A stretch of 64,000 bases of DNA from the NCBI GenBank assembly GCA_019637225.1, contig JAHBWC010000003.1:1-64000 (forward strand), given 5' to 3'. Each line of letters begins with the position of its first letter. Positions within the stretch are counted from its first letter, which is position 1. The DNA comes from Labilithrix sp. (GTDB lineage Bacteria; Myxococcota_A; Polyangia; Polyangiales; Polyangiaceae). A program made the translations under genes and the position numbers. Under the pieces are notes generated by a model. The model searched no databases and was not told where the DNA came from. It worked only from the letters and a program-made list of their open reading frames with translations. Of this stretch, positions 32,542 through 52,035 are shown piece by piece.

Positions 32542-33918
32542 TCACGTCATGAACGTCTCGTAGTCGAGCCGATCGAGCTTGCGCGACAGGACCGCGAGCG
32601 CGACGAGGCTCGTGAGGGCCGCCGCGACGAGGAACCCGAAGCCGTAGAACCGCGGCCCGAGGTGCTGGCTCGCGATCGAGAAGGCGAGGTTCGAGCCCGC
32701 GAAGAGCGCCGCGAGCCAGAGCGCGAGCTTCCGGCAATCGAGGTAAAAGAGGATCGTGAGGGTGGCCAGGAGGAGGACCTGGAAGCCGACCGCGGCGACG
32801 TCGACGTTGAACAGGTACGAGTAGAACGCGGGGATCCGGAAGACTGCGAGCACGCGCTCGCCCACGAGCAGGAGGACGACCACGGTGAGGCCCTGGATGC
32901 GGAAGATGTCGTCGATGCCCGAACGCGCGGCGTCCGCGAGCGCGCCGCGGAGCCGCCGGAGCTCGTCGAGCGTCTCACCCTGCCGGACCGCTGCGTAGTA
33001 GCGCTCGTACTGTTCGGCGAAGTCGGTCTCGATGCGGACGAAGAACACGGCCATGCCGGGGATGACCGAGAGATAGGCGACGAAGATCGGGACGTCGTAC
33101 ACCACCGAGTGGCGTATCGGGCCGAGGAGGGGCTCCGACGTCACCGGGTTCATCCAGAAGACGAACTTGTCCACCCAGACGGCGCCGTTCACGAGCGCGC
33201 CGGTCAACGCCAGTCCGGCGTGGACCTTCTTCCTGTCGAGGAACTCGAACGCGATGAAGCGATCGCTCGGGTAGCGGCGCAGGATCAAGAGGAGCATCGC
33301 GAAGAGCATCACCGCGTGTCCGACGAAGAACCCCGCGAGGTAGCCGGCGAGGCCCACCCGCCCGAGCACCGGCGCGAGCGTGACCGTGACGCCGTAGCCG
33401 AGGGCGAACACCACGACCACGCTGCGGTACGCCTTCACGCCGGAGAGCAGCCCGCTCAGCAGCCAGACGTTGCAGAGCGTCACGAAGGTCGCGACGAGGA
33501 GGACCCGAAACGCGACGCCACCGTCCGCCGCGCTCCACGTCGTCAGCGACACCACGAGCGCGCCGGTGACGCCGCTCGCGACGGTGGTGACGAGCATCGC
33601 GCCGAGCAGGTTCGGCGCGATCGCGTCGTCGCGCTTCTCGAAGAGCCGGTCGGCGATGAACCGCACGAAGAGGAGCTGGAGGAGCCCCGACAGAGTGAGC
33701 GAGCACGCCATCAGGTACGTGACCGTCGCGAGGAACGGCGTGACGGTGTCCGAGCCGCGTCCGCTCGCCTGCGTCAGCACGCCGATGAAGAGCATCGAGC
33801 CGATCGAGATCAGCCACGGCCCGGAGCCCACCATTCCTGCCAGCAGGTAGGCCCGGAGGACGCCGGCGTACGTGTCCTTGCGGAGGTGCTGCCGTAGCTC
33901 GAATCCGATCCCTGCCAA
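32542..33918 (-). CDS. pelG: PelG, Pel exopolysaccharide inner-membrane transporter (458 aa)
   Basis: MATE/Wzx-like polytopic protein that, with PelD/E/F, moves the growing Pel polymer across the inner membrane. The N-terminus MAGIGFELRQHLRKDTYAGVL, followed by AYLLAGMVGSGPWLISIG, is the PelG hallmark. About 12 hydrophobic segments fill the sequence (for example SMLFIGVLTQA, ATVTYLMACSLTLSGLLQLL, GYLAGFFVGHAVMLFAMLLLIL). The length matches Pseudomonas PelG. It is the last gene of the minus-strand pel arm, 15 bp after pelF, and should be transcribed with it. Confidence 0.93.
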   Translation of the reverse strand: MAGIGFELRQHLRKDTYAGVLRAYLLAGMVGSGPWLISIGSMLFIGVLTQASGRGSDTVTPFLATVTYLMACSLTLSGLLQLLFVRFIADRLFEKRDDAIAPNLLGAMLVTTVASGVTGALVVSLTTWSAADGGVAFRVLLVATFVTLCNVWLLSGLLSGVKAYRSVVVVFALGYGVTVTLAPVLGRVGLAGYLAGFFVGHAVMLFAMLLLILRRYPSDRFIAFEFLDRKKVHAGLALTGALVNGAVWVDKFVFWMNPVTSEPLLGPIRHSVVYDVPIFVAYLSVIPGMAVFFVRIETDFAEQYERYYAAVRQGETLDELRRLRGALADAARSGIDDIFRIQGLTVVVLLLVGERVLAVFRIPAFYSYLFNVDVAAVGFQVLLLATLTILFYLDCRKLALWLAALFAGSNLAFSIASQHLGPRFYGFGFLVAAALTSLVALAVLSRKLDRLDYETFMT

Positions 33919-33933
33919 CGCGACCTCCTCGGC

Positions 33934-35478
33934 TCAGTCGTGCGCGAGCGCGCTCTCGTAGATCGTTCGGTAGCGGTCGAGCATCAGCTCCTGCGTGTAG
34001 CCCTTCTCGACGCGCGCGATGCCGGCCGCTTGCGCGGCGCGCCAGCGGGTTGGATCGGCGAGGAGCTCGAGGGCCGCGCGCGCGGTCGCCTCCGGGCTCG
34101 CGATGTCGACGACGTCGCCGGCGCTCCCGAGCGCGCGATCGTCCGGCGTCGCGCCGTGCACGAGCTCTCGAACGCACCCGACGTCCGTGGAGAGGCACGG
34201 CACGCCTGCGGCGAACCCCTCGAGCACGACGAGCGGCTGGGCCTCGCTGATCGACGTGAGCACGTTGAGCCCGATCCGCGGCAGAACCTCCGCCACGTTC
34301 TGGAAGCCGAGGAACTTGACCGTACGTTCGAGCCCGAGGCTCCGGACGAGGTGGTGACACTCTTCGGCGTAGCTCTTGTCTTCGTCCTCGGGGCCGACGA
34401 TCCAGCCCTCGGCGTCCGGCAGCGCCGAGGCGACCACGCGCATCGCGCGGATGAACGTCTTGATGTCCTTGATCGGGACGACGCGTCCGATCAGCCCGAG
34501 CACGCGCGGGATCTCCTCCGTGCGCCTGCCGCGCAGCGCGGCGAAGCGGGTCAGATCGATCCCGTTGGGCACGACGCGCGTCCGGCCTTCGCCGGCTCCG
34601 TCGCGCACCTGTCGGCGCCGGTTGCCTTCGTAGAGCGAGATGATCGGCCTCGCGGCGGCGTAGGACATCCGGCCGAGCGCCTCGAAGAAGCGGATCCACA
34701 TCTGCCGGAAGAAGCCGACCGCCTGCGCGCCGCCGTCCTCGTCGTCGGCCGATCCGTCGTCGCGGATCCACGTCGCCTGGAGCAGCTCGATGCCTCGCTC
34801 CTTCGTGTAGATGCCGTGCTCGGTCAGGATGAGAGGCCGCCGGCGCTTCTTCTGTACGAGCGCGCCGAGGAAGCCCGCGAATCCGGTGGAGACGACGTGG
34901 AAGGTCCTCGACGGTGGGAGCGCCGCCGCGACGCGCGCCATCTTGAAGAGCGGCGCGTGCATCGAGCGCACGGTCCAGAAGTACTCGAGGAAGCTCCGCG
35001 TCCGCGCCGAACGCCCGTACCGCTCGCAGATCTCCACCCACGACGACTCGCTGGAGAGGAAGTCCTTCTCGTGGCGTGCGGGATCCTCGAGCAGGGCGCC
35101 GGCGACCCTGTCGAGCATGCGATCGAGCCGCTCGCGCGCCGCGTCGGTGGCCTCGAACGCGTCGTGGAGGTCGCCGCTCAGCCGGTAGAAGTCGCGATCG
35201 CCGACGTGCCCGCCGACCCGCTGGAACCGCGGCACCTCGGCGAGAAAGTGCTCCTCGAGGTGGACGACGTTCTTCGGCAGCTCGTAGCGAAGGCGATCGT
35301 AGCTCTCCGGGTTGCCGCCGATGAACACGAGCGCGAAGCGGAGGCTCGGCAGGCCGCTCACGATCTGGTGCACCCAGCTCGACACGCCGCCGCTCACGAA
35401 CGGGTAGGTCCCCTCGAGCAGGAGCGTGACGTCGGCGGACTCGCCGGGGCCGAGCGTCGGGCCTCCGAAGCGGCTCAC
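33934..35478 (-). CDS. pelF: PelF, GT4 glycosyltransferase of Pel synthesis (514 aa)
   Basis: Cytoplasmic glycosyltransferase that polymerises UDP-GalNAc-type sugars into Pel. LLLEGTYPFVSGGVSSWVHQIVSG near residues 18-40 is the PelF signature. The GT-B fold continues with LTEHGIYTKERGIE, VVPNGIDLTRF, LGLIGRVVPIKDIKTFIRA and the Glu-rich donor-site motif SISEAQPLVVLEGFAAGVPCLSTDVGCVRELV. The length fits the family (about 507 aa). The GTG at 35478 overlaps the pelE stop (GTGA), so translation is coupled, and the spacing to pelG is 15 bp. ATG is not available near this point. Confidence 0.94.
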   Translation of the reverse strand: MSRFGGPTLGPGESADVTLLLEGTYPFVSGGVSSWVHQIVSGLPSLRFALVFIGGNPESYDRLRYELPKNVVHLEEHFLAEVPRFQRVGGHVGDRDFYRLSGDLHDAFEATDAARERLDRMLDRVAGALLEDPARHEKDFLSSESSWVEICERYGRSARTRSFLEYFWTVRSMHAPLFKMARVAAALPPSRTFHVVSTGFAGFLGALVQKKRRRPLILTEHGIYTKERGIELLQATWIRDDGSADDEDGGAQAVGFFRQMWIRFFEALGRMSYAAARPIISLYEGNRRRQVRDGAGEGRTRVVPNGIDLTRFAALRGRRTEEIPRVLGLIGRVVPIKDIKTFIRAMRVVASALPDAEGWIVGPEDEDKSYAEECHHLVRSLGLERTVKFLGFQNVAEVLPRIGLNVLTSISEAQPLVVLEGFAAGVPCLSTDVGCVRELVHGATPDDRALGSAGDVVDIASPEATARAALELLADPTRWRAAQAAGIARVEKGYTQELMLDRYRTIYESALAHD

Positions 35479-36563
35479 GACGACGACTCCGCGAGTCGCG
35501 GTGCGCGCGGGGGAACGGAGCGCGCCGGCTCGCTCTCTGCCCACAGGTCGATCACCGGGCGGAGGGCCGCGCTCGCGTGCGGTGAGGCCGCGAGCTCCGC
35601 GAGCAGGGCGCCGACCGCTTCGTGCTCGCGCTGCTCGAACGCGCACTCCGCCAGGAGGGGTAGCGCCTTCTTCCGCGGGTAGCCGGCGGCGATCGCCCGC
35701 TCGAACGCGACCTCGGCGCGCGCCGGATCGCGCAGCCGGACGAGGACCCTGCCGAGGAAGAACTCGGCCGCGGCGTTCCCGGCGACGAGCTCGCACGCGA
35801 GCGCCGCGTGTCGGTGCGCGCATCGGAGCGCGTGGTCGAGCACCGCTCCTTCCGCCAGGCCCGACCAGGCGAGCTCCCCGTAGCTCTCGGCGAGGCGCAG
35901 GTTGAGCCGTGGCTCCTCGTCTCTGTCGCCGACGGTGAGCGCCCTCGCGAGGCGCTCGATGCGCCGCTCGATCTCGCCGCGCATGGTCTCGAGGCGCGAG
36001 AACGCGTAGAGGCGCACCTCGTCGGTGGGATCGCTCTGCGCGGCGCGGAGGAGCGGGACCGCGATCGTCGCCGGGAGATGCCTCGTCGCGAGCACCGCGC
36101 GGAACCGCGCGCCTGCGGCCTCGGGGGAGCGGTCGCGCAGCGCGCTTCCGACCTCCTCGGCCGAGGCGCGACGACGAAGGCCTCGCGCCTCGCGCCTCGT
36201 GCGCTCTTCGAGGTCGGCGGGGCCGTCGTGGACGAGCCACGGCTCGCGGCTGGGCGGGCGCGCCTCGGTCAACCCGCGTGTCAAGACGATGAGCGCGCCG
36301 AGCACGCCGAGGACGGGCACGAAGAACGAGAGGCACGCCGTGAAGACCGCGACCTCGCTCGCGCGGTGTCGGACGAACGGCGGCGCCGCGCCGGCGAGCA
36401 GCGCTCCGGCGCCGAGCGAAATGGCCGCGTGCGCGGCGAGGAGGACCACCGGCGGAAGGGCCGCGCGCGGCGACGGCGCGAGGAGCGACGCGCAGGCCGC
36501 GAGGTCGACGAGGGCGACCGCCAGAGCGCCGGCCGAGCGCGCGAGGCGCCGCGAGCTCGTCAT
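35475..36563 (-). CDS. pelE: PelE, inner-membrane TPR scaffold (362 aa)
   Basis: Two to three hydrophobic helices at the N-terminus (SAGALAVALVDLAACASLLA, VVLLAAHAAISLGAGALLAGA, SEVAVFTACLSFFVPVLGVLGALIVLT) precede a soluble helical domain. Its repeats (RLNLRLAESYGELAWSGLAEG, AAEFFLGRVLVRLRDPARAEVAFERAIAAGY) are TPR-like. This architecture and the position between pelD and pelF identify PelE, which recruits PelF and PelD into the inner-membrane complex. ATG 36563 overlaps the pelD stop (ATGA). The size is close to the roughly 330 aa of Pseudomonas PelE. No catalytic residue is expected. Confidence 0.85.
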   Translation of the reverse strand: MTSSRRLARSAGALAVALVDLAACASLLAPSPRAALPPVVLLAAHAAISLGAGALLAGAAPPFVRHRASEVAVFTACLSFFVPVLGVLGALIVLTRGLTEARPPSREPWLVHDGPADLEERTRREARGLRRRASAEEVGSALRDRSPEAAGARFRAVLATRHLPATIAVPLLRAAQSDPTDEVRLYAFSRLETMRGEIERRIERLARALTVGDRDEEPRLNLRLAESYGELAWSGLAEGAVLDHALRCAHRHAALACELVAGNAAAEFFLGRVLVRLRDPARAEVAFERAIAAGYPRKKALPLLAECAFEQREHEAVGALLAELAASPHASAALRPVIDLWAESEPARSVPPRAPRLAESSS

Positions 36564-37501
36564 GCGCTCGCGTCCTCGGTGAGCGCCGCGCGCGTCTCGC
36601 GGTCGCGAGGCTCGGCGGCGAATCGCGACGCGAAGCTGGTGGCGACGGTCACCATCGTGTCGAGGTTTGCTCGCTCGAACGACATGAACGGCATCGCCTG
36701 GACCGAGAGCACGGCGCGGACGTCGCCCGAGGCGTCGACGAACGGGACCGCCGCGAGCAGCGACGAGCGGAGCAGCGCTCGATCTCGCTCGGGGGCGGCG
36801 GCCGCGGGAATGTAGGTGAGCCGGCCGGAGCGCACCGCGTGGGCGAGCAGCGGGTCGTCGCGGCGCGTGCGCTCCGGTCGACCCACCGAAGCGCATCGCT
36901 CGCCGATGACGGCGCCTCGCTCGACCCTGAAGAGCTCACCGATCTCGAGCCCGCAGTGCGCGGCGAAGAGATCCACGATGGCGGCTCCGTCGGCGCCGAG
37001 CGTGACGTCGGCTTGCGCCAAGGCGCTCGCCGCGTCCATCGCGTCACGCAGGCTGCTCGCCTTGCACTGCAGCTGCTCGTCGAGGCGGTCGTGCGAGGCC
37101 TCGAGGACGACGTGCGCGCGCGCGAGCCTGTCCGCTTCCCTTCGAATCGCGGCGAGCCCGCCTTCGAGGCGCCGCACCTCGCGCTTCCACAGCTCGGCGA
37201 ACTGGCCCGCGATCATCGCGAGCGCGACGAGGCCGACCACCGGCTCGCCGGGGAAGCTCGCCATCGGGACGAGCCGCGTGCGCCAGCCGAGGATCAACGC
37301 CGCGCCCAGCGCGAACGCGCTCCCGAAGCCGAGCGTGAAGCCGTGTCGCAACGCGACGAGCAGCGGCGCGAACACGAGCCAGGGGAAGCGGTAGTGCAGA
37401 AAAAACGGATCGCTACGGTCGACGAGCCAGCCGATGGCCGGGATCGCAGCGGTGACGACGATGCTCTCGGCGAGTCGCCGGGTCGCGAGCGAAGGTGTCA
37501 T
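36560..37501 (-). CDS. pelD: PelD lacking the GGDEF domain (313 aa)
   Basis: Four hydrophobic helices (about residues 8-100) and a coiled-coil-like segment (KREVRRLEGGLAAIRREADRLA) are followed by a GAF domain. That domain runs from about residue 165 (DVTLGADGAAIVDLFAAHCGLE) to about 300 (MVTVATSFASRFA). Canonical PelD (about 455 aa) then has a degenerate GGDEF domain whose inhibitory RxxD site binds c-di-GMP. Here the protein stops about 15 residues after the GAF domain, and the next gene starts at once. I see no GGDEF remnant in any frame of the following sequence. Function as an inner-membrane assembly partner of PelE/F/G is likely, while direct c-di-GMP activation is doubtful. Start ATG 37501 is eight bases after the pelC stop. 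Confidence 0.88.
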   Translation of the reverse strand: MTPSLATRRLAESIVVTAAIPAIGWLVDRSDPFFLHYRFPWLVFAPLLVALRHGFTLGFGSAFALGAALILGWRTRLVPMASFPGEPVVGLVALAMIAGQFAELWKREVRRLEGGLAAIRREADRLARAHVVLEASHDRLDEQLQCKASSLRDAMDAASALAQADVTLGADGAAIVDLFAAHCGLEIGELFRVERGAVIGERCASVGRPERTRRDDPLLAHAVRSGRLTYIPAAAAPERDRALLRSSLLAAVPFVDASGDVRAVLSVQAMPFMSFERANLDTMVTVATSFASRFAAEPRDRETRAALTEDASA

Positions 37502-37509
37502 GTCTCGCC

Positions 37510-38106
37510 TCAACGCGTGTCGTGGAGCTCGTGGACGAGCCTGTCGAGGAGTCGGAGCGCGGTGCCGCTCGCGTTCTCCGCGCTCGTCCCGGTTTGGGTG
37601 CCGGTCGCCGCCCAGACGACCTTGCCGCTCGCCAGCTCGAGGACCCGCATCGACACGCCGATCGCCGGCTCGCCGTCGAGCCCGCTCTTGTAGCGCCACT
37701 CCTCGACGCTGCCCGTGACCGCGTAGTCGTACTTGCTCCCGCGGGCCCACTCGAGCGCGGCCTCGTAGCGCTGACGGTCGCTCGTGAAGAGCTGCGCGTC
37801 GCCCTCCTTCGGAGAGGGATAGTGATCGAGCTGCCCGACGCCGCCCTTCCGGAGCAAGGTCTCGAGGATGGCCTCGACGCGCTCGCCCGCCTGCGGCGTC
37901 TCGGAGTGGTTCTGCACGGGCAAGAGGGCCCACCGCGAGCTCGCCTTCACCTCACCGGCGCGGTGAACGCTCGTGATCGGACCCGCGCACCCGAGACCGA
38001 GGCCGACGGCGAGGAGCGCCGGCGCGAGGGGAGCGATCGAAAAGAGCGCGCGCCCAGGGCCGCGAGCACGCGCGCGGCCCCGGCTGGAGAGTAGGACATG
38101 AACCAC
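37510..38106 (-). CDS. pelC: PelC, outer-membrane lipoprotein of the Pel secretion complex (198 aa)
   Basis: Residues 1-39 form a long signal peptide with an Arg-rich start and a lipobox (GLGLGC, Cys40). The mature part has the PelC pattern SSRWALLPVQNHSETPQAGERVEAILETLLR. It is followed by an Ala/Gly-rich body and EWRYKSGLDGEPAIGVSMRVLELASGKVVWAATG. PelC forms a dodecameric ring at the periplasmic face of the outer membrane that guides Pel into the PelB barrel. The GTG at 38106 is chosen because AAGGGGG precedes it by five to six bases. Upstream lies a 142-bp gap to pelB, longer than between the other pel genes. Confidence 0.85.
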   Translation of the reverse strand: MVHVLLSSRGRARARGPGRALFSIAPLAPALLAVGLGLGCAGPITSVHRAGEVKASSRWALLPVQNHSETPQAGERVEAILETLLRKGGVGQLDHYPSPKEGDAQLFTSDRQRYEAALEWARGSKYDYAVTGSVEEWRYKSGLDGEPAIGVSMRVLELASGKVVWAATGTQTGTSAENASGTALRLLDRLVHELHDTR

Positions 38107-38248: not shown

Positions 38249-40987
38249 TCAGAACGGCAGCGTGTACGAGAGCGCGAGCTCCGCGTTCTCGTTGTTCCGC
38301 ACGCCGGCGACGCCGCGATTGTAAAAGACGAGCAGCGTCGTGTAGCCGCCGGGCGCGCGGACGCTCGCGCCGCAGAGGACGTGCAACGCCACGTCGGTGT
38401 CCGGCAGGAGCGCCCCGAGCGCGGCCTCGCAGTCGTAGCGCGGGAACGGCGCGCGCTCCGGGCGCGAGCGCTCCGTCGGGTCGCCGCGCGCGAGGTGGAC
38501 CACGCCGCCCACGAGCTGGAAGCTCGGAGGCAGCTCGCGGACGAGGCCGACGTTCGGCGAGACGAGCCGCGCCACGTCTCCGGGCAGACGCGTCGGGTAC
38601 TCGCGCTGCGATGCCTGCACCTGCGCGCCGACCGAGAGGTGGGGCTCGCGCGAGAGCAGCTTGAAGCCGCCTTCGGCGCTCGCCAGGGCCTCCCACGCCA
38701 GGTGCTCGTAGCTGCGGGTGTGCTCCTCGCGGCCTTCGACCTCGGCGCTGGCGTACCAGCGCGCGATGTCGTAGCGGAGCCCGACCGACGCCGCGTTGCG
38801 CACGGCGGCGACCCGGAGGAAGCCCGTGTCGTAGATGCGACTTCCGCCGCGCACCTCGGTCGTGAGACCGAGCTGACGTGTGAGGCGGCGCTGATCGTAC
38901 ACGCCCGCGCGCGCGATCGGCGCGCCGACCTGATAGTCGACGGCCGCGGTGATGTCGGTGACTCCGCGGAGCGTCGAGAGGCGGAGGAGCAGGCTGCCCT
39001 CGGCCTCATCGCGCGGGCCTCGAAGCAGCAGCTGGCCCCCGCCGTCGGTCATGCGCGCCGCCGACGCAGCGTAGGTGAGGCGTCCGCCGAGCCCGTCGTG
39101 GCTCGCCGCCAGCGACGGCCCGGCGACGTCGACGCCGGCGATGTGCTCGTAGGCCGCGCCCACCCGGACGTTCGGGCGGTGGAGCAGCGTGAGCCGGGCG
39201 AGCTCCTCGCTCATCGCCGGCGCGTCGGCGCCGCTCGGCGCGCGCGACAGCTCCTGACGGAGCACACGCATCGCCTGGGGATCGCGCTCGAGCGCGACGT
39301 ACGCGTGCGCCCGGTCCTCGGGCGACAGCCCCGTCTCGTCGGCGAGCAGCACCCGCATCTCGGTGGGATCTCCGTCGACGAGCGCGAGCGCGAGGCGTTG
39401 CCTGCGGAGGGCGTCGGGCGAGCTCCTCGCGATGATCCGGCGCGCGTGCTCCGGCCTGCCCGTCGCGAGGTACCAGTCTGCGGCGAGCTCGTCGTCGCTG
39501 CGCGGCCTCCGGGCACGCGTGAGCGTCGAGCCGCGCGACGAGCGGCCGCGTGAGCTCCCGAAGAGCTCCGACATCCAGGGCTCGGCGCGGGTGACGCCGG
39601 CGTGCGAGCGCAGCGCGAGCGCCGTCGACTCGACGAGGTGCCGATCCTCCTCGGTCTTGCGCGTGCTTCGCGCGGCGAGCCGGATCTCCATGGGAAGGTG
39701 GGCCACCGCGCGACGCCGCAGGTCGTCCGCCAGCGTGTCGCGCCCGAGGATCGAGAGCGCGTCGGAGAGATCGAGCAGGAGCCGCGCGTCGCGAGGGGTC
39801 GTCTGGAGCTGAAGCGAGAACCAGACGAGCGCCTCGCTGGCGCGCCCGATGCTCGCGAGGCCGTGCGCCAGCGGGAGCCAGAGGGCCGGCTCGTCACGCG
39901 TGCCCTGGCGGAACCGGTCGACGTACGTGCGGACCTGCCGGGCGTCGCCGCGCTCGATCGCCGTCCAGAGCGCGCTCGCGCGTACGCTCGGATCGGTCGG
40001 CGCGAGGGCGAGCGCGGCCGCGTAGGCCCTCGATGCCTCGTCGAGGTCGCCGAGGTGCTTCGCTGCGTCGCCGCGCAGCCCGAGGTACTCGGCGTGTTCG
40101 GCGAGCGCGCTCGGCGAGCGCGCCAGCTCCTCGAACAGCGCCCAGAGACCGGCCCAGTCGCCGTCGCTCTCGAGGAGGTGCGCGGCGAACAGGGCAGGAG
40201 CGGGCTCGCGCGTGCGCGCGTGCTCGGCCACGGCGACGCGCACCGCCTCGTCCCGTCGCTTCGCGTTCGCGAGGAGCGTCATGAGCCGCAGCCCAGCGTG
40301 GAGCGTCTTCGGCTCGAGCCGATACACGTGCTCGTAGGCGACGAGCGCCGCTTCGGCGTCGTCGCGTTCCCACGCGAGCGTCGCCAGATCGATCCAGTAG
40401 GCCTCTCTGTCGCGCGGCGCTCGCGCCCGCGTCGCGAGCAGCGCGGCGTACGCGGCGTCCACGTCGCCGACCCGCGATAGGTCTCGCGCGTACCGCACCG
40501 TCTCGTCGACCGAGAGCGCCTCGAGCCCGAACCGCTCGACGAAGCGCTGCCAGATCGTCACGGCCTCGCGCGAGCGGCCGCTGCGCGCGAGGAGCTCGGC
40601 GAGGAGCACGCGCGGACGCCGCTCGTCCGGGTAGCGCTGGACGCGCGCGCGCAGGAAGTCGACCGCGAGCTCCGGCGTCCCCGCCAGCTCGTGGGCGTCG
40701 ATCACGGCGACGAGGTCGGCCTCCGTCGCCCCCTTTCCGCTGCCGTGCATCACGAGCAGTCGAGCGACGAGCCGCTCGTCGTGGAGCATGCGGGCGATGC
40801 GCAGGGCGTTCGAGTACGCCGATCCGGTGCCGGGCAGCGGGCCGCGCGCCTGCTCGCTCGACGCGCCGTCGGGGTGTGCGCGTGCGTGTGCTCGATCGTC
40901 GGCGGACGCGACGTGCCCGCTCGCCGTCGCGGCGATGAGCAGGGCGACGGTCGAGAGGACCGCCCGTGCATCGGGACGGCGGCGCAT
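38249..40987 (-). CDS. pelB: PelB, TPR plus outer-membrane beta-barrel part (912 aa)
   Basis: Signal peptide (MRRRPDARAVLSTVALLIAATASGHVASA) then about 500 residues of TPR-type helices (for example PRVLLAELLARSGRSREAVTIWQRF, EAYWIDLATLAWERDDAEAALVAYEHVY). The C-terminal 300 residues are an outer-membrane beta-barrel with the final strand AELALSYTLPF, ending in the usual aromatic Phe. This is the periplasmic/exit half of PelB, whose barrel secretes Pel. Pseudomonas PelB is one 1193-aa chain with an N-terminal membrane helix. Here the N-terminal membrane-anchored part appears as a separate gene in the divergent arm, and this chain has its own signal peptide. A 10-bp palindrome GAACGCGTTC sits at 41031-41040, upstream of the start. 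Confidence 0.86.
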   Translation of the reverse strand: MRRRPDARAVLSTVALLIAATASGHVASADDRAHARAHPDGASSEQARGPLPGTGSAYSNALRIARMLHDERLVARLLVMHGSGKGATEADLVAVIDAHELAGTPELAVDFLRARVQRYPDERRPRVLLAELLARSGRSREAVTIWQRFVERFGLEALSVDETVRYARDLSRVGDVDAAYAALLATRARAPRDREAYWIDLATLAWERDDAEAALVAYEHVYRLEPKTLHAGLRLMTLLANAKRRDEAVRVAVAEHARTREPAPALFAAHLLESDGDWAGLWALFEELARSPSALAEHAEYLGLRGDAAKHLGDLDEASRAYAAALALAPTDPSVRASALWTAIERGDARQVRTYVDRFRQGTRDEPALWLPLAHGLASIGRASEALVWFSLQLQTTPRDARLLLDLSDALSILGRDTLADDLRRRAVAHLPMEIRLAARSTRKTEEDRHLVESTALALRSHAGVTRAEPWMSELFGSSRGRSSRGSTLTRARRPRSDDELAADWYLATGRPEHARRIIARSSPDALRRQRLALALVDGDPTEMRVLLADETGLSPEDRAHAYVALERDPQAMRVLRQELSRAPSGADAPAMSEELARLTLLHRPNVRVGAAYEHIAGVDVAGPSLAASHDGLGGRLTYAASAARMTDGGGQLLLRGPRDEAEGSLLLRLSTLRGVTDITAAVDYQVGAPIARAGVYDQRRLTRQLGLTTEVRGGSRIYDTGFLRVAAVRNAASVGLRYDIARWYASAEVEGREEHTRSYEHLAWEALASAEGGFKLLSREPHLSVGAQVQASQREYPTRLPGDVARLVSPNVGLVRELPPSFQLVGGVVHLARGDPTERSRPERAPFPRYDCEAALGALLPDTDVALHVLCGASVRAPGGYTTLLVFYNRGVAGVRNNENAELALSYTLPF

Positions 40988-41077: not shown

Positions 41078-42172
41078 TCAGTCCCAGTAGCAAACGACCT
41101 TCTGTCCGCCGCTCGCGTCGCTCGCGTACGGCGAGAAGCCGCGCGCCGATGCGCGCGCCGCCGCGGCTCGCGCGGCGCTCTTGTTGCGGCAGCTCCCCAC
41201 GTAGTCCTCGACGCCGATCCAGAAGCGTCGGTGGTCGCGCGCCGAGAGCCCCATCGCCCTCCACGCGAGAAGCTCCGTCTCCGCGTTGGCGTCCGGCACC
41301 GGCGCGTAGACCTCCTCGTGCGCGACGCCGTCCAAGAGGAGCGGGAACGGGACGCCGCCCGTGAGCCCGAGCCGCGTCACGTCGCTCGTCGCGTTCTGCA
41401 TGACGATGAGATGACCGGGGAACTTCTCCCGGAGCTTCCGCACGAGATCGAGGCCGCCCTGCTTGCACGCCGCGGGGCACGAGCCGTTGGTCGAAGAGGC
41501 CGGGTGCTCGAGGAGCTCGAGGTTGTCGACGTAGAACCCGTCGACGCGCGCCGCGAGGCGCGGCGCGACGTGCTCGAGGATGAGCGCCTGATAGGCGGCG
41601 TTGCCGGGATCCATCCAGACCTCGTCCGGGTATCCCTCGTACGCGCCGCGCTGCGCGTCCACGTTCGCGGCGCAGGGCACGAGCCCGCGCGGCGCGGTCG
41701 ACCAGTAGGTGCGGAACGTCTCGCACGAGCCGACGTTCATGTAGCTGAGGACGCGGTTCTTTCCTCCGGCCCGGAGGACCTCGAGCTCCGCGTCGGTGAA
41801 GTTCCGCGCGCCTGGATCGGCGTCGACGTTGATGATGCGGTACGTCCGCGCGACGCGCGACAGATCGCGCATCTGCGCTGCGCTGCCGTAGAAGGACACC
41901 CACGGTCCGGCCTCGGGAAAGCCAGGGCCGAGCGTCGAGCGAGCCGCGGGGGAGGCGGCGTGCGTCTCGCCGGGCGGCGCGGCAGGACGACGAGCGCTCG
42001 CCTCGTCGCCCTCGTCTTCGGCCTCGCGGCTCTCGCTCCGTGGGCCGTCGGCGCTCGTCGTGCGTGGCGAGGGCGGCCTCCGCGTGCACGCTGCGGCGCA
42101 AGCGATCGCAAGCGCGATGACGATCGTCGTTCGCACGCCGCCTCTGCTCCTGCAGCGAGGGCTCGCCGTCAT
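41078..42172 (-). CDS. GH114-like endo-alpha-1,4-polygalactosaminidase lipoprotein (364 aa)
   Basis: Signal peptide with lipobox (IACAAAC, Cys29), a Ser/Asp/Pro-rich spacer to about residue 85, then a TM1410/GH114-type TIM barrel. Conserved stretches are LSYMNVGSCETFRTYW, DEVWMDPGNAAYQALILEHV and RVDGFYVDNLELLEH, where the acidic residues after Val-Asp line the site. A later strand GHLIVMQNATSD follows. GH114 enzymes cleave the alpha-1,4-GalN backbone of Pel-like polymers. Its position, divergent from pelA and directly ahead of pelB, supports trimming or release of Pel. It would be anchored in the envelope and could assist PelA. It is unusual in pel loci as an extra hydrolase. Confidence 0.82.
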   Translation of the reverse strand: MTASPRCRSRGGVRTTIVIALAIACAAACTRRPPSPRTTSADGPRSESREAEDEGDEASARRPAAPPGETHAASPAARSTLGPGFPEAGPWVSFYGSAAQMRDLSRVARTYRIINVDADPGARNFTDAELEVLRAGGKNRVLSYMNVGSCETFRTYWSTAPRGLVPCAANVDAQRGAYEGYPDEVWMDPGNAAYQALILEHVAPRLAARVDGFYVDNLELLEHPASSTNGSCPAACKQGGLDLVRKLREKFPGHLIVMQNATSDVTRLGLTGGVPFPLLLDGVAHEEVYAPVPDANAETELLAWRAMGLSARDHRRFWIGVEDYVGSCRNKSAARAAAARASARGFSPYASDASGGQKVVCYWD

Positions 42173-42184
42173 GGCGGCATCTCG

Positions 42185-42243: not shown

Positions 42244-42254
42244 GCTTCGCGCGC

Positions 42255-45071: not shown

Positions 45072-46152
45072 TCTCGACACGTCGCGCCGCGGCGTCTTCG
45101 CCGGCGCGCCGATGCTCCTCGGCGTGGCGTTCGTGATGGGCGTCGTGCTCGCCGTCGTCTTCCCGACGGGGCACGAGTTCGCGGCGCTCGCGGGCAAGCA
45201 CCGCGTGGACGCGTACTCGATCGCCTACCTCTCGGTGCTCACCCGAGCGAAGCGCGACGACGGACACCTCCGCCTCGTGTACGCGCGGCAGCTCGCGTCC
45301 CTCGGCCGCTGGGACGCTGCGCTCGCCGAGCTCGACCGCGAGACCTTCGCGCCCGCCTTGGTCGGCGACGCGGAGGGCCTCCGTCTCGAGCTGATGCTCG
45401 CCCGCGCGTACGCCCTCGATCCGACGTCTGTTGCGCGCCGCGCGGCGCTCGACGCGGTCCACGACGAGCTCCGGAGGCTCCGAGGACGCTCGTGGCCTCC
45501 GTCCCGCGCGCGCGAGCTCGGCGCGCTCGCCCTCGAGCTCGAGGACCCCGGGCTCGCCGCGCGGTACTTCCTCGCGGCGGCCGAAGCCGAGCCGAGCCGC
45601 TCGGCGCGCGCAGCGACGTTGGCCGACGCAGGGCGATGGCTCCGCGCGGCCGGCGACGACGCAGCCGCGAGCGAGTGCCTTCGCCGCGCCGCCGAGACGA
45701 CCGACGACCCCGAGCGAGAGGTCGTCTACGTCACCGCCCGCGCCGGCGCGCTGGAGGCAGGGGGCCGCCCCTGCGACGCCGCCCGCGCCCTCCTGCCGTT
45801 CGCCGTCTCCGCGAACGACGTCGCGCTCGTCACGAGGGCGGCGACCCTCGCGACGTCGTGCGGCGACGTCCGTGAGGCGAAGATGCTCGGCCGCCGGATC
45901 CTCGCGCTCGCGCCGGACGACGAGGCCTCGATGCGCGCGCAGGTCGGGCGCGAGCTCGCCGCGGGCGATCCCCCTGGAGCGCTCGTGCTCCTCCGGCGCC
46001 TCGTGAAGTCCCGGCCGGAGGACGGCGACCTACGCTTGACCACCGCGCGCGTGGCGGAGTGGTCCGGTCAACCGCAGGTCGCGCTCGAGCACTGGCTCTT
46101 CCTCGTATCGACGGGCCGGATCGCCGCGCCCACGCGAGCGGCGCGCCGATGA
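45058..46152 (+). CDS. Inner-membrane TPR protein resembling the N-terminal part of PelB (364 aa)
   Basis: One membrane helix (PMLLGVAFVMGVVLAVVFP, residues about 18-36) is followed by GKHRVDAYSIAYLSVLTRAKRDDGHLRLVYARQLASLGRWDAAL. This is the PelB N-terminal pattern of a membrane anchor leading straight into TPR repeats that count polymer or chain partners in the periplasm. Further TPRs run to the end. There is no signal peptidase site and no beta-barrel. The TTG start at 45058 follows GGGGGAGG, overlaps the pelA stop by 14 bp and suggests translational coupling. Together with the 912-aa barrel protein it would total about 1276 aa, close to a one-piece PelB. The name pelB-N is inference from order and pattern. 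Confidence 0.72.
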   Translation: MSAADLDTSRRGVFAGAPMLLGVAFVMGVVLAVVFPTGHEFAALAGKHRVDAYSIAYLSVLTRAKRDDGHLRLVYARQLASLGRWDAALAELDRETFAPALVGDAEGLRLELMLARAYALDPTSVARRAALDAVHDELRRLRGRSWPPSRARELGALALELEDPGLAARYFLAAAEAEPSRSARAATLADAGRWLRAAGDDAAASECLRRAAETTDDPEREVVYVTARAGALEAGGRPCDAARALLPFAVSANDVALVTRAATLATSCGDVREAKMLGRRILALAPDDEASMRAQVGRELAAGDPPGALVLLRRLVKSRPEDGDLRLTTARVAEWSGQPQVALEHWLFLVSTGRIAAPTRAARR

Positions 46153-46155
46153 GCG

Positions 46156-46229: not shown

Positions 46230-48455
46230 ATGCGGGGGAGAAGCGGTCGCGTGGCTCGGATCTCAGCGCCGGCGCGCCTTGGCCGTCGCGCGCTCTTCGA
46301 GGGCGTGCTCGGCTTCGGGGTCGCGCCGGCGCTCGGTGGCGTCGTGGCGAGCCTCGGAGGGTGCGCTCGCGAGGACGACGTGCCGAAGGCCGACCCGCCC
46401 GGCTCCGGTTGGATGAGGTATGCACGCATCGCCGGCCTCGACCTGAGCGATCCCGATTTCGACGCCGCGCCCGCGCTCGACGCCGCCGTGCGCGCGGGGG
46501 TGAGCGTCATCGAGGGAGACAGCATCCTGTCGGACTACGCGAGCGACGCGACGTTCGACCTCGAGGTCCGACGCATCGCCGAGTACGCGCGGAGCTGCCA
46601 CGCCCGGAACCTGAAGCTCGTCTGGTACTACCCGTGCCTCGAGGTCGTCACGCCGGACGGCGAGAAGCCGGGCGTTCGGTCGCTCTACAAGGACCACCCG
46701 GACTGGGTGCAGGTGAGCATCGACCGCCGGCCGAACGTCTTCTACGGGAGCAAGGAGCACTGGGTCGACCCGTTCGCCGAGAGCGCGTGGCTCTGCCACA
46801 ACTCCGGCTACCGCGAGTACTTCTTCGAGCGCATTCGCAAGCTCGCGGGGGCCGGCCTCGACGGCTTGTGGATCGACGTGCCGCTGTTCATGGACACGGT
46901 GCTCCGCTGGACGTGCCTGAACCGCGCCTGCCTCGACAAGTTCCGCGCGGACACGGGGCTCTCCGCCGAGAGCATGCTCGAGGACTGGAGCGATCCGGTC
47001 TTTCGCACGTGGGTCTACTGGCGCCACGAGGAGCTCACGCGCTTCTGCATGGAGATCCTCGCGGTCGCGCGCAGCGTGACGCCCGACTTCGAGATCGTGT
47101 TCGAGACGGTGACGATGGATACCGACATCGCGACGGTCCAGGGGCTCGACGCGAGCTTCCGGACCTTCGAGCTGAGCAAGCCGCTGGCGTCGGCGGAGGC
47201 CCTCGTGCTCGCCGAGCGGATCGACCGCGTCTGGGAGCTCGACTCGGTGAGCAACATGTTCGGGATGCGTCCGGCGCTCGCGGACGACTGGCTGTGCAAG
47301 GTCCGCGGCGCGAAGTTCGCGCGGGGCTGCGATCGCCCGCGGCCGTCGTGGGTCTTCAGCTACGGCGCGGAGGAGCCCGACGCGGGCCTCGCGATGTCGC
47401 TCCTGTGCGCCACCGGCTGCAATCCGTACGAGACGAAGACCCCCGAGATGACGACCACCGTCGGCGCCGCGTTTCGCGCTCGCATGTTCCAGTTCATCCG
47501 GCGGCACGCGGAGCTGCTCTTCGACGCCGAGCCGTCGGCGACGGTGGGCGTCCTGCACTCGTCGTCGAGCCGCGACTACGTCGATCGCGGGCCGGTGGAC
47601 ACGGCGTTCTTCGTGAGCGCGGTGAACGAGGTCGAGCATCGCGAGGTCTACGCGGCGGACAAGTCCTTCTTCTGGGGGGCGTCCCTGCGCGACCGGACCT
47701 ACTGCGGCGACTACGGCGGAGCGGTGAAGGCGCTCTCGCACCTCCACGTGCCGTTCGCGATCGTCCCCCTGCAGACGATCACCGCGGCCGACGAGGCGTA
47801 CCTCCGGTCGTTCCGGCTCCTCGTCGTGCCGAGCCTCCAGCACGTGAGCGACCTCCACGCGGAGATGCTCGTCCGATACGTCGCCTCGGGAGGTCGGCTG
47901 CTCGTCCTCGGGCAGGCGCCGGGGCACGGCGACCAGCTCGGCTCCCCGCGTCCGGAGGCCACGCGGCTCGACCGGCGGCTCGGCTTCGACGCGGCCGGCG
48001 GAGCGGTCTCGATCGGCGGCAAGGTGATCTACGAACCGGCGCTCCTCGGGCGGGAGTACCTGCTCCGCGAGGACGCTCAGGCGCTCGCGGTCTTCGAGGC
48101 CGCGGTTGAGGACGCGGGGGCGAGGCGCGTCACGATCGACCGGCGCGAGCACCCTCACGTCCACGTGGAGCTCGCGAGGCACGCCGGTCGCTGGGTGTTG
48201 CACCTCGTGAGCTACGCGGGAGCGCCCGCCGCGCTCGCGGTGAAGCCGGGGGCGCCGGCCGCGTATCCCTTCGAGCACGACTACGCGATCGTCCGGCGTG
48301 ACGTCACGGTCGAGGTGACTGTGCCGGAGGCGATCAAGGGCGCGACGTTCCTCTCGCCGGACAGGCAGTTCGACGCCGCGGAGGCGCGGTGGCTCGGCGG
48401 CGGGAAGGTCCGGGTGCCCCTGTTCCAGTACTCCGTCGTCGTCCTGGAGACCTGA
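46230..48455 (+). CDS. Glycoside-hydrolase-like lipoprotein, TIM barrel plus beta-galactosidase-trimerisation-like domain (741 aa)
   Basis: N-terminus with twin Arg (GRRALFEG), a hydrophobic core and lipobox LGGC (Cys45) suggests a Tat- or Sec-exported lipoprotein. Residues about 62-420 look like a TIM barrel: MRYARIAGLDLS, KLVWYYPCLEV and GLDGLWIDVPLF with Asp216 at the end of a strand. Residues 440-590 (VGVLHSSSSRDYVDRG, VKALSHLHVPFAIVP and FRLLVVPSLQHVSDLHAEMLVRYV through GGRLLVLG) match the amidotransferase-like trimerisation domain of GH42 beta-galactosidases. A beta-sandwich follows. The paralogous gene begins four bases downstream. The catalytic acids and substrate are not established; in the pel locus it plausibly cuts Pel or a related aminosugar polymer. 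Confidence 0.68.
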   Translation: MRGRSGRVARISAPARLGRRALFEGVLGFGVAPALGGVVASLGGCAREDDVPKADPPGSGWMRYARIAGLDLSDPDFDAAPALDAAVRAGVSVIEGDSILSDYASDATFDLEVRRIAEYARSCHARNLKLVWYYPCLEVVTPDGEKPGVRSLYKDHPDWVQVSIDRRPNVFYGSKEHWVDPFAESAWLCHNSGYREYFFERIRKLAGAGLDGLWIDVPLFMDTVLRWTCLNRACLDKFRADTGLSAESMLEDWSDPVFRTWVYWRHEELTRFCMEILAVARSVTPDFEIVFETVTMDTDIATVQGLDASFRTFELSKPLASAEALVLAERIDRVWELDSVSNMFGMRPALADDWLCKVRGAKFARGCDRPRPSWVFSYGAEEPDAGLAMSLLCATGCNPYETKTPEMTTTVGAAFRARMFQFIRRHAELLFDAEPSATVGVLHSSSSRDYVDRGPVDTAFFVSAVNEVEHREVYAADKSFFWGASLRDRTYCGDYGGAVKALSHLHVPFAIVPLQTITAADEAYLRSFRLLVVPSLQHVSDLHAEMLVRYVASGGRLLVLGQAPGHGDQLGSPRPEATRLDRRLGFDAAGGAVSIGGKVIYEPALLGREYLLREDAQALAVFEAAVEDAGARRVTIDRREHPHVHVELARHAGRWVLHLVSYAGAPAALAVKPGAPAAYPFEHDYAIVRRDVTVEVTVPEAIKGATFLSPDRQFDAAEARWLGGGKVRVPLFQYSVVVLET

Positions 48456-48459
48456 CCTG

Positions 48460-51400
48460 ATGGCGCACCGAACCCGCCTCGCGCTCACGCTCACGCTCGC
48501 GCTGTCGCTCCCCTCCGGCTGCTCGGACGACGCGCGGACGGAGGCGCCGATCGCGATGCTCCCGCCCGCGCCGTGGCTCGCGGGGGCGACGTTGGCCGGC
48601 CTCGAGCTCCCGGCCGAGGCGTCGAGCGCCGCTGTCGACCGCGCCCTCGACGAGCTCCACGCCGAGAACGTCTCGGCCGTCGTCCTCCGCTCGCCGATGG
48701 CCGAGCACTACCGCAGCGACGCGGAGCTCGACGTGGACCTCCGGCTCGCGCGCCTCGTCTCCGATCGCGCGCACCGGCGCGGCATGCGGGTCCTCTGGAC
48801 GATGCCGACGCTCGCGCAGCGCGACGCCAGCGGCGAGGTGCCGGCGATCGCGCGCGAGCATCCGGACTGGCTCCAGCTCCCGCTCGAGGCTCGGTTCGAG
48901 AGCGACGGCGCGCTCCTCTGTCCGCTCGGACCGGCGCGCGACTGGCTCCTCGCGCGCGTGCGGAGGGTCGCGCGGAGCGGCGTCGACGGGATCTTGCTCG
49001 AGGCGCCCACGCTCGCGCCTCTCCGCGGCGAGGCCGCGTTGCTCTGCCCCGAGCAGCGAGCGAGGTTCGAGGCCGACACCGGCTTCGGTCTTCCCACGCG
49101 CGTCCCGTGCGACGATCCCTACGCGAGCGTCGACGTCGCGTGCGAGGAGGTCTGGCGTCAGCCGGCGTGGGCGGCGTTCCTCCGGCATCGTCACGTCCTC
49201 GTCGCCGAGCTCGAGGCGGCGATCGCGGACGCCGCGCGCGAGGCGTATCCGGACGTGCTCGCCGTGATCCAGGAGCGCGCGTTCGACACGAACCTCGCGA
49301 CCGATCGCGGCGCCGACGCGACGTTCGCGCGGCAAAAAGACGGGCTGAATCGGCTCTGGGACGTGCCGGTGCCCTCGGGCACGGAGGGGATGCGACGCGC
49401 CACCCCCGACGACTGGATCCAGCGGATCGCGATGCTGAAGCTCGCCCGCGGGGTCGATCGGGAGCGCGCCTCCGTCGCCTCGAGCGCCGGGGCGTCGGAG
49501 TGGGACGCCGGGCTCGCGCTCGGCACGACGTTCGCGGCCCAGGCGAGCCCGTGGGAGCAGAGGAGCGGGATCCCGCACGCCGGAGTCGCGCGCGAGCTCC
49601 GGACGCGTGCGTTCGCGTGGGCCAGAGAGCACCTCCCGGCGATCCAGTCGGCACGATCTGCGGCGCGCGTCGCGGTCATCCAGTCGTCGGCGTCGCGCGA
49701 TCTCGTCGACTTCGGGTACGGCTCCGGGACCTTCGCCTCCGCGATCGCGCCGCTCACCGGCGTGGGGCAACGTCACGTCGTGCGCGACAGTTCGTGGTTC
49801 GCCGCGGACGCGGCCGACGGCGCGGGCGCGCTCGAGGCGGTCGGCGAGCTCCGCGGGATGATCAAGGCGCTCTCGCACCTGCACGTGCCGTTCGACGTCC
49901 TCCCGGCCGAGACGCTCACCGCCGCGGACCTGTCGAAGTACCGCCTCGTCGTGGCTCCCGACGTCGTCGCGGTGAGCGACGCGGCTGCGAACGCGGTGCG
50001 CGAGCTCGTCGCGCGCGGCGGGGCGGCGCTCTCGTCCGGGCTCGGCGTCTGGGCGCGAGACGAGCTCGGCAGGGAGCGACCGGAGCTCGCCGTCGGCGAT
50101 CTCTTCGGGATGACGCGGGCCTCCAACCTCGGCGCCGACGCGACGGCGTCGCGCGCCGCGTGCTCGCACGTGGAGGCGCTCTTCGGACGCCGCTACCTGC
50201 GCTACGGCGACGAGCTCAGCCTCGACCGCATCCGCGACGCGATCGATCGCGCGGAGGCCTCGCCGATCGCGACGGACGCCCCGCGCGACGTCTGGCTCGA
50301 TCTGCTCGAGGGCGACGGCGAGCTCCTCGTCAGCGTGGTCAACCTCACGGGGGCCTCCTCGGCAGGCGGGCAGAGCGCCCCGCTCAGGGTGAAGATCGAC
50401 GTCGAGGTCGCGAGGCGCGTCGCGGGCGCCTCGGTCACGTCCCCCGATCCGGGCGCGCATGATCGCGACGTCGCTGTCGCCTCGCCCGAGCCCGGCGTCG
50501 TCTCGTTCGAGGTCGACGTGTCGGAGTACTCGCTCGTCCGCCTGCGGCTCGGGGCGGAGCCGGTGCGACGGGCTCCGCGCGTCGAGGGCGCGCCGGCGAT
50601 CGCCGCCCTCGGGGAGTCGTCCGGGCTCGCGGGCCACTCGGTGGCGCTGCGCGGCTCGGGCTTCGGCCACGCGGCGGGCACGGTCACCTGGGGAGGGGCG
50701 CCGTGCGTCGTGACCGCGTGGCATCCGGACGCGGTCGCGTGCTGGCTCCCGCACGACGCCGCGCCGGGGACCGCCGACGTCGTGCTCCACCGCGGCGGCG
50801 CGAGCTCGAACGGCGTTGCGTTCACGGTGATCGCGCCCCGGCTGACGGCCTCGCAGCCGATGAAGGACGCCTTCTCGTTCATCAAGACGAAGATGCGGAG
50901 CTCGTTCGGCGGCGTGTTCACCAACTTCAAGGACCGCGTGGACGAGCCGGGGTCGAACGAGGTCTATCCGTACGGCCACCACCAGACGGCAGAGCACCTC
51001 GGGCTCTTCTTGTGGGTCGCCGCCGCGCTCGAGGATCACGCCGCGTTCGAGCAGGCGTTCGCGTTCCTCTCGTCGCGAATGCTGTCGCCGCGGCTCGAGG
51101 TCGTCAACTGGGCGATCGACAAGACCAGCGGCACCCCGATGCTCCACCGCGACGATCCGTCGGGGCCGCTCCTCAACTCGAACGCGCCCCTCGACGATTT
51201 TCGGGTCGTGAACGGCCTCGTCGCCGGCTGGGAGCAGTGGAGAGATCCGCGCTACCGCTGGGCCGCGCTGCGCATCGGCAACGCGCTGCTCGAGACGTCG
51301 ACGACCGTGACGACGGCGCTCCCGGAGTTCCCCGAGGGCGTCGTGGCCTACGCGTACAACTGGCCCGAGGGCAGAGGTCGCGGCGCGACCGACTACGAGG

Positions 51401-52035
51401 TCATTCCGATCGACTACGCCGACCTCTGGTCGATGCGGTGGCTGTCGGCTTACGACCCGCGCTGGAATCCGGTCATCGACGCGAGCGTGCGCCTGATGGA
51501 GCGCGCGTCGTTGCCGGTGGGGCACTTCTACAACTCGTACCTCACCGAGACGAGGGCGCTGAGCGGCGACTTCGAGTTCCGCGACACGATCGCCGGTCAG
51601 AAGATCAAGGCGATCCAGTCGCTGTGGACCGCCATCCACCTCGCGCGCGTCGGGCAGACGGCGCCCGCACGCCGGGCGCTCGACTTCTACGAGAAGGTCT
51701 ACGCCGAGCGCGGCCGCGTCGCCGAGTACCTGAACTACGACGGCTCGGAGGTCACGGAGCCCGAGCTCGCGAGCTCGCTCGCCCAGGGCGAGGCCCGCAT
51801 CTACGCGCAGCTCGTGCGGCTCGCGTACTACCTCGGAGACAAGACCTTCGGCGACAAGGTGATCACAGAGAAGATCGTGACCGATCAGGTCGACGAGCCG
51901 ACGTCGGCGCTCTTCGGCAACATCGGCAAGAGCTCGACCGACGCCGACGACGCCGAGGCGTGGAACACGCTCGAGGCGCTGCTCGCGCTCGCCCTGCAGC
52001 GCGACAGCGCGGTCGTCGCGCACGTCTATCGATGA
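48460..52035 (+). CDS. Giant glycoside-hydrolase-like lipoprotein with IPT/TIG and GH8-like toroid (1191 aa)
   Basis: Signal peptide with lipobox (LPSGC, Cys21). The first 600 residues are paralogous to the preceding protein: a TIM-barrel-like region (GLELPAEASSAAVDRALDELHAENVSAVVLRSP, VDGILLEAPTL) and a trimerisation-like region. The latter has VIQSSASRDLVDFG at about residue 406, VKALSHLHVPFDVLP and YRLVVAPDVVAVSDAAANAVREL. Residues about 708-795 form an IPT/TIG-like immunoglobulin domain (GHSVALRGSGFGHAAGTVTWGG, APGTADVVLHRGGASSNGVAFTV). From about 800 to the end is an (alpha/alpha)6-type domain (KDAFSFIKTKMRSS, EVYPYGHHQTAEHLGLFLWVAAALED, DFRVVNGLVAGWEQWRDPRYRWAALRIG) like GH8 or related toroid glycosidases. 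This four-part fusion is unfamiliar to me. It closes the plus-strand pel arm. Confidence 0.7.
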   Translation: MAHRTRLALTLTLALSLPSGCSDDARTEAPIAMLPPAPWLAGATLAGLELPAEASSAAVDRALDELHAENVSAVVLRSPMAEHYRSDAELDVDLRLARLVSDRAHRRGMRVLWTMPTLAQRDASGEVPAIAREHPDWLQLPLEARFESDGALLCPLGPARDWLLARVRRVARSGVDGILLEAPTLAPLRGEAALLCPEQRARFEADTGFGLPTRVPCDDPYASVDVACEEVWRQPAWAAFLRHRHVLVAELEAAIADAAREAYPDVLAVIQERAFDTNLATDRGADATFARQKDGLNRLWDVPVPSGTEGMRRATPDDWIQRIAMLKLARGVDRERASVASSAGASEWDAGLALGTTFAAQASPWEQRSGIPHAGVARELRTRAFAWAREHLPAIQSARSAARVAVIQSSASRDLVDFGYGSGTFASAIAPLTGVGQRHVVRDSSWFAADAADGAGALEAVGELRGMIKALSHLHVPFDVLPAETLTAADLSKYRLVVAPDVVAVSDAAANAVRELVARGGAALSSGLGVWARDELGRERPELAVGDLFGMTRASNLGADATASRAACSHVEALFGRRYLRYGDELSLDRIRDAIDRAEASPIATDAPRDVWLDLLEGDGELLVSVVNLTGASSAGGQSAPLRVKIDVEVARRVAGASVTSPDPGAHDRDVAVASPEPGVVSFEVDVSEYSLVRLRLGAEPVRRAPRVEGAPAIAALGESSGLAGHSVALRGSGFGHAAGTVTWGGAPCVVTAWHPDAVACWLPHDAAPGTADVVLHRGGASSNGVAFTVIAPRLTASQPMKDAFSFIKTKMRSSFGGVFTNFKDRVDEPGSNEVYPYGHHQTAEHLGLFLWVAAALEDHAAFEQAFAFLSSRMLSPRLEVVNWAIDKTSGTPMLHRDDPSGPLLNSNAPLDDFRVVNGLVAGWEQWRDPRYRWAALRIGNALLETSTTVTTALPEFPEGVVAYAYNWPEGRGRGATDYEVIPIDYADLWSMRWLSAYDPRWNPVIDASVRLMERASLPVGHFYNSYLTETRALSGDFEFRDTIAGQKIKAIQSLWTAIHLARVGQTAPARRALDFYEKVYAERGRVAEYLNYDGSEVTEPELASSLAQGEARIYAQLVRLAYYLGDKTFGDKVITEKIVTDQVDEPTSALFGNIGKSSTDADDAEAWNTLEALLALALQRDSAVVAHVYR

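Follow-up and report, generated by a model that had tools for sequence, protein, structure and literature searches.

The window locus beside described Pel systems

Pel is a widespread biofilm polymer whose genes in Pseudomonas aeruginosa are pelABCDEFG, and passages of PMC9894940 report that the PelA hydrolase of this species makes the secreted form of Pel and that cutting sets the secreted amount. Fission of PelB, locus gain and rearrangement of pelA are reported for pel clades of other bacteria (passages of PMC7112194), and pel genes are reported for Myxococcota metagenome bins, three of them of Palsa-1104 (passages of PMC11821767, citing Dueholm et al. 2023). Gram-positive bacteria carry a pelDEADAFG locus with a divergent hydrolase, BCE_5582, or, in Streptococcus intermedius, SIR_1591 (passages of PMC7112168 and PMC12345266). 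PelB fission, a rearranged pelA and Pel in Myxococcota are, on those passages, already in print, and so are not new here. We describe a pel locus in a 64,000-nucleotide stretch of Labilithrix sp. (contig JAHBWC010000003.1, positions 1 to 64,000; hereafter the window; 71.6% G+C), taken from an 8.2-Mb draft genome of 182 contigs that is 83% complete. Besides the Pel functions it holds three glycosidase-like genes, gh114, gha and ghb, and we consider it probable, judging from homology and genome comparison, that it encodes a Pel export system with added exported glycosidase-like proteins acting on Pel.

Profile and PDB sequence searches found all seven Pel functions in the window, distributed over two divergent arms. 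The minus arm has the order gh114-pelB-pelC-pelD-pelE-pelF-pelG, with gaps of 8 to 151 bases and two overlaps (pelE with pelF, 10 bases, and with pelD, 4 bases); the plus arm has the order pelA-tprX-gha-ghb, in which pelA and tprX overlap, 77 bases separate tprX from gha, and the gap between gha and ghb is 4 bases. The PelF and PelG homologues exceed curated cut-offs, and by homology the locus is a Pel synthase-dependent export system. A sequence-only reading of the window had described seven Pel functions in two divergent arms, a noncanonical order and three extra polysaccharide hydrolases; every gene that it named is present, the profile and PDB matches bear out the layout, and the three extra genes are indeed glycosidase-like (one GH114-like, one GHL6/GHL10-like, and one with a degenerate barrel and a GH8/GH126-like domain). 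A second pel operon was not found, the 83%-complete assembly giving a single PelG match.

The window shares with P. aeruginosa all seven functions, the PelA catalytic residues, PelC, and sequence corresponding to residues 20-349 and 359-733 of its PelB (PaPelB), but differs in its two arms, two-protein PelB, PelD without GGDEF and three extra glycosidase-like genes. The clades of PMC7112194 share the split PelB and the moved pelA; the passages of that paper lack both the window order and gha/ghb, and neither "myxo" nor "Deltaproteobacteria" is mentioned in its text, figures and supplements aside. Pel in Myxococcota is shared with the Palsa-1104 bins, and the passages of PMC11821767 are silent on extra hydrolases and gene order. 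The Gram-positive loci resemble the window in having, near pel, an additional TIM-barrel hydrolase that is partly surface-exposed and, in streptococci, a PelD without GGDEF. They differ in lacking PelB and PelC; in S. intermedius, PelD carries a degenerate SDR domain, and SIR_1591 has a DUF4832 domain, a family that gave no match with gha or its relatives (passages of PMC7112168 and PMC12345266). We found no paper linking the gha family with Pel in open-licence PMC.

Residues 38-909 of the 938 of window PelA align to the solved PelA 9cgy (E 4e-193, PDB sequence search). The hydrolase pair is kept (D141/E200, corresponding to D149/E207 in 9cgy), as are the deacetylase motifs HLDGD at 510, ASHTYSH at 582 and YYHFY at 738, so that the protein has the catalytic residues named for the PelA hydrolase and the CE21 deacetylase in passages of PMC12022489. 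Residues 60-439 of window PelB align to PaPelB 359-733 and are followed by the Pfam PelB barrel, and residues 19-351 of tprX align to PaPelB 20-349 (E 4.7e-15). The break thus falls between PaPelB 349 and 359, and the same parts form one protein in G351 and G089, genomes of the same class and the same genus, respectively. On these alignments tprX and pelB are a PelB split into two proteins, and the scaffold and barrel of PelB and the ring subunit PelC are all present.

A glycosidase-like family that accompanies Pel

The paralogous products of gha and ghb share 29% identity, sit on long branches of the tree, and belong to an uncharacterized family of exported glycosidase-like proteins. In Pfam, gha scores 24.3 against GHL6 (cut-off 35) and 17.6 against GH42M (cut-off 25.8); only the GATase-like part of ghb reaches GH42M (29 versus 25.8), and the family protein L065 just passes GHL10 (28.3 versus 27.9). 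The gha and ghb barrels have no GH114 Pfam match and no PelA chain among their PDB matches; as to membership of GH166, the window pelA profile lists neither protein at E 1e-3. The third protein, gh114, has a single PDB match, 9ep5, deposited as a GH114 TIM-barrel domain protein (E 1.9e-7, 34 bits). Its candidate catalytic acids, D216 (aligned to 9ep5) and E286 (by spacing only), lie 70 residues apart. From passages of PMC12054363 we infer that 9ep5 is Env-GH191 of that paper, near a Myxococcus fulvus protein; to the GH191/GH114/GH166 endo-galactosaminidases described there, gh114 is similar only at this low level of 34 bits. The three added glycosidase-like proteins differ in kind, gh114 being a GH114/GH191-like barrel, gha a member of another barrel family, and ghb a degenerate barrel with a GH8/GH126-like domain.

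The export signals of the gha family are diverse, comprising lipoboxes, twin-arginine stretches and, in Caldithrix, a Por_Secre_tail. These differing signals argue that the proteins lie outside the inner membrane, several of them probably at the surface. Both window proteins had been called lipoproteins, and for gha this holds, a clear lipobox (LGGC) following a twin-arginine-like stretch; for ghb the lipobox pattern gave no match, and a lipoprotein is plausible given PSGC after a hydrophobic stretch. Cadherin/PKD repeats occur in five gammaproteobacterial members of the family, and such adhesin-like repeats, together with the lipoprotein signals, would also fit a different function, in which gha and ghb are lipoproteins of the cell surface that bind or anchor Pel without catalysis, keeping the cationic polymer attached to the cell. 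The ghb barrel, with A, E, Q and P at E138, D216, E292 and D338 of its relatives (altered acids that are also seen in the second copy of G113 and in the copy of G237), favors such a role. However, all 13 tabulated acidic residues are exact in gha and in 15 others of 23 aligned rows (30 rows less seven duplicate loci; the fragment L096 is included), and the C-terminal GH8/GH126-like domain of ghb is conserved, being 39-45% identical to copies in five relatives with many invariant acids. We therefore regard a purely anchoring function as unlikely.

Among GH8/GH126 enzymes (3ren and 6r2m, which we take to be GH126 and PssZ, respectively), the profile of the ghb C-terminal domain matches 3ren (1.6e-13), with the Glu of TAEHLG aligned to SESEG of 3ren; no Pfam family matched at 0.01 among six sequences of this domain. 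It is strong in seven of the 377 genomes of the phylum (Myxococcota), six of them with PelG, a count that omits two weak matches (G002 and G008, without PelG).

The gha family follows PelG closely across genomes, most of which are draft assemblies. The profile scan of the contigs of the named genomes gave at least 68 loci among the matches listed, at least 14 of them strong. Counting as strong carriers only genomes with matches above 44 bits (the next genome scores 44 bits), we obtained 12 among the 377 genomes of the phylum, 11 of them with PelG, which itself is present in 25 of the 377; all eight carrier genera in the phylum include a PelG genome. All eight strong carriers outside the phylum, among the matches listed (records of Nitrosomonas, Caldithrix, Thiohalocapsa, Leucothrix, Thiotrichaceae and Granulosicoccaceae), have PelG as well, although the G379 PelG is just a 32-residue fragment at the end of a contig. 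By contrast, PelG is in none of the 25 genomes tested with distant relatives of the family (22-28% identical, mostly acidobacterial), out of at least 54 listed. We then have samples of two bacterial families. For the Nitrosomonas family, 2/81 genomes are carriers, both with PelG (PelG in 27/81), which alone is not significant (p 0.11). For the Leucothrix family, 11/63 are carriers, including the contig-end fragments G495 and G513, and all have PelG, some as fragments (PelG in 20/63). Eight of these 13 carriers were first found after the hypothesis had been formed, and all eight have PelG. Over the three samples (377, 81 and 63 genomes), 24 of 25 carriers have PelG versus 4.95 expected (stratified p 4e-21); without the seed genomes the values are 2e-11 for the phylum and 3e-5 for the Leucothrix group. 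These p-values overstate the case, because related genomes are not independent and relatedness is uncorrected.

In a few lineages the association is also physical. A family gene is linked to pel genes in the window, in G093, in Caldithrix (L057), Thiohalocapsa (L059) and Thiotrichaceae (L096), and in G513, where the linkage consists of fragments on one contig. Elsewhere the two are apart: in the carriers of the bacterial family f27 the gha-family gene lies on another contig than pel, and in G515 and G482 it lies about 0.6 and 1.9 Mb from pel on the same contig. Co-occurrence without linkage argues for shared function over hitch-hiking.

This pattern bears on the possibility that gha and ghb are glycosidases that serve nutrition or defense by acting on other glycans, tied to Pel through a common biofilm habit. 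Many family genes are indeed unlinked, amid housekeeping genes or sensors, the GATase-like part is related in sequence to general glycosidases, and the TIG part of ghb has matches in alpha-amylase and cyclodextrin glucanotransferases. Against this, PelG is present in 27 of 28 strong carriers once three more lineages are added (among the matches listed), whereas a control with GH114, found in 114 of the 377 genomes and in 23 of the 25 with PelG, left 91 of its 114 carriers without PelG; moreover, the gha family is physically linked to pel genes in several lineages. A general glycosidase role thus seems to us improbable, and a Pel-related one remains our preference.

Several observations nevertheless weigh against a function of the family on Pel. 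One carrier, G237 (68% complete), has no PelG and no PelF above cut-off. The family is absent from 14/25, 25/27 and 9/20 PelG genomes in the phylum, Nitrosomonas and Leucothrix samples, respectively; with so many Pel genomes lacking it, the family is not essential to Pel. Twenty chosen neighbors of family genes show no functional pattern, and a GH114 domain is also present in 17 of 20 carriers tested. We accordingly set these neighbors aside as functional evidence (they include polyphosphate kinase, Fe-S proteins, sensors and a TRAP transporter), with the DUF2194 protein in G204 as the exception. We also dropped a strict replacement of the PelA hydrolase by gha/ghb, given that 17/20 carriers keep a GH114 domain somewhere.

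The carriers without GH114 are G093 (94% complete), G113 (82%) and G237. In G093 the genome has no GH114 domain, PelA has no hydrolase domain, and there are two family members, which makes these the leading candidates for cutting in that genome. A broader proposal, which we put forward tentatively and hold with less than even confidence, is that gha and its relatives form a new Pel-specific glycoside hydrolase family that spans at least three phyla, is exported in different ways (as lipoproteins, through twin-arginine signals or with a type IX-like tail), stays tied to Pel even when megabases away, and takes over cutting where the PelA hydrolase domain is absent. If true, this Pel-following family would be a marker for Pel users across phyla, and its members would be candidate enzymes for taking Pel biofilms apart.

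In the model that we infer, for operon structure and loss of cyclic di-GMP (c-di-GMP) control as well as for substrate, activity and place of action, the locus would comprise two divergent transcription units. PelF would make the chain, PelD, PelE and PelG would move it across the inner membrane, and PelA would trim and deacetylate Pel, a partially deacetylated alpha-1,4-N-acetylgalactosamine polymer. Export would proceed through the split PelB, with tprX on the inner-membrane side and the pelB barrel and PelC ring on the outer side. The exported products of gh114, gha and ghb would then act on Pel as glycosidase-like proteins: gha is a likely active barrel hydrolase, and ghb probably binds Pel via its degenerate barrel and cuts via its GH8/GH126-like domain. 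The likely role of gha/ghb is to trim or remodel exported Pel, during or after export, and together with gh114 they would most likely remodel or release it at the cell surface or in the matrix.

PelD and gene order in relatives

Residues 158-295 of window PelD match the first domain of solved PelD (E 4.5e-6). The match ends at 295 of 313 residues, with only 22 residues beyond the conserved part, and no GGDEF remnant follows, because pelE starts 4 bases before the end of pelD. The c-di-GMP receptor of PelD, a degenerate GGDEF domain with RxxD, is absent from the window protein, and is kept by near relatives, those of the same genus and family included: the PelD tails of G351, G349 and G089 have 137-164 residues, with RGLD, RELD or RTTD. 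Tails shorter than 60 residues occur in 5 of 29 genomes (the window, G093, Caldithrix G378, Thiohalocapsa G380 and G369), a count that omits G118. Four of the five have the gha family near pelA or pelG, and G369 lacks the family, although the numbers are small; we considered a joint occurrence of GGDEF loss and pel-linked gha and dropped it. G384, also linked, has a 122-residue tail without RxxD, and the tails of G037 and G067 are, by eye, unlike a GGDEF domain. Loss of GGDEF is compatible with function, since the S. intermedius PelD, reported as functional, also lacks it (passages of PMC12345266). With the receptor domain absent, c-di-GMP probably does not act through PelD to switch Pel synthesis, and the control of such a system could be tested with the window protein. 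In the draft genome G118, pelD is broken into two frames (oriented locus 17220-18671, L051/L052).

We mapped the domains of the pel loci of relatives with hidden Markov models (HMMs) built from the window. The D-E-F-G block has a constant order wherever the contig shows it (the contig of G142 ends within E-F-G, and pelD of G118 is the broken one), and the A, B and C parts vary. G351 has the canonical A-B-C-D-E-F-G. In G089, pelA and a fused pelB face pelG-F-E-D, and no pelC turned up in the 31 kb examined. In G349, of the same family, one contig has gh114 divergent from pelA-tprX-pelB, and a second has pelB-C-D-E-F-G; this would read as the canonical order with a split PelB if the two contigs adjoin. 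G349 thus shares with the window both the split PelB and the divergence of gh114 from pelA.

The sequence-only reading had taken the order for a myxobacterial version of Pel with its own processing enzymes, and had proposed a comparison with relatives. That comparison turned up a canonical operon at class level, in G351, and orders that differ within the genus, family and class; we therefore abandoned the idea of an order-defined myxobacterial version. The second half of the claim fared better, as co-occurrence supports a Pel-related role for gha/ghb. Because class, genus and family relatives show other orders, the window order is best seen as a local rearrangement. That the two arms are instead a decayed or misassembled locus no longer making Pel is very improbable: the assembly is a draft (83% complete, 182 contigs), window PelD is truncated and several orders occur within one genus and family, but the eleven frames are all open, three gene pairs (pelF/pelE, pelE/pelD, pelA/tprX) overlap, gha and ghb are 4 bases apart, the PelA catalytic residues are kept, the gh114/pelA pair and PelB split recur in G349, and a PelD without GGDEF works in S. 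intermedius (passages of PMC12345266).

PelA itself varies among the relatives. Eight f27 genomes and G204 have a DUF2194-type PelA without the PelA hydrolase domain, assigned by Pfam in G030 and G204 and by profile in the rest, two of which are cut by contig ends. In the f27 Pel loci L019 (12078-14588) and L163 (365-2746), PelA consists of a mixed alpha/beta domain and DUF2194, with no hydrolase domain, and in G204 a DUF2194 protein resembling f27 PelA adjoins a gha-type gene. The Caldithrix PelA (L057, 3313-7029) has three consecutive mixed alpha/beta domains ahead of the deacetylase. The pel locus of G093 (L036) includes a protein with two FHA domains and, by eye, a galE-like epimerase (3529-4908, 5161-6195).

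Coordinates and neighboring gene

The starts of pelF, pelE, pelD, pelC and pelA are our choice inside longer open frames.

Features of the pel locus, with positions in the window
Feature	Position	Strand	Basis
pelG, inner-membrane exporter	32542-33918	-	Pfam PF16933, 460.7 bits, profile 1-452
pelF, GT4 glycosyltransferase	33934-35484	-	NCBIfam PelF equivalog NF038011, 713.7 bits
pelE, membrane + TPR	35475-36563	-	position and HMM similarity to pelE of other loci
pelD, membrane part + GAF only	36560-37501	-	PDB match, tail length versus relatives
pelC, lipoprotein	37510-38097	-	PDB 9h80_C, E 7e-42
pelB, outer-membrane half: TPR + beta barrel	38249-40987	-	Pfam PF24604, 82 bits; PaPelB 359-733
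gh114, small GH114/GH191-like putative hydrolase, divergent from pelA	41078-42172	-	Pfam GH114, 26.4 bits (just below the cut-off of 27)
intergenic region, 82 bases, between the gh114 and pelA arms	42173-42254	.	gene coordinates
pelA: hydrolase, mixed alpha/beta, deacetylase and C-terminal domains	42255-45071	+	PDB 9cgy match
tprX, PelB N-terminal half: membrane helix + TPR	45058-46152	+	PaPelB 20-349
gha, exported GHL6/GHL10-like barrel + GATase-like (GH42M-type) domain	46230-48455	+	profiles, conserved acids
ghb, degenerate barrel + GATase-like + TIG + GH8/GH126-like (residues 801-1179)	48460-52035	+	profiles, alignments

A gene of the phosphoesterase family (PF04185; 30572-32068, inside the open reading frame 30572-32737) adjoins pelG.

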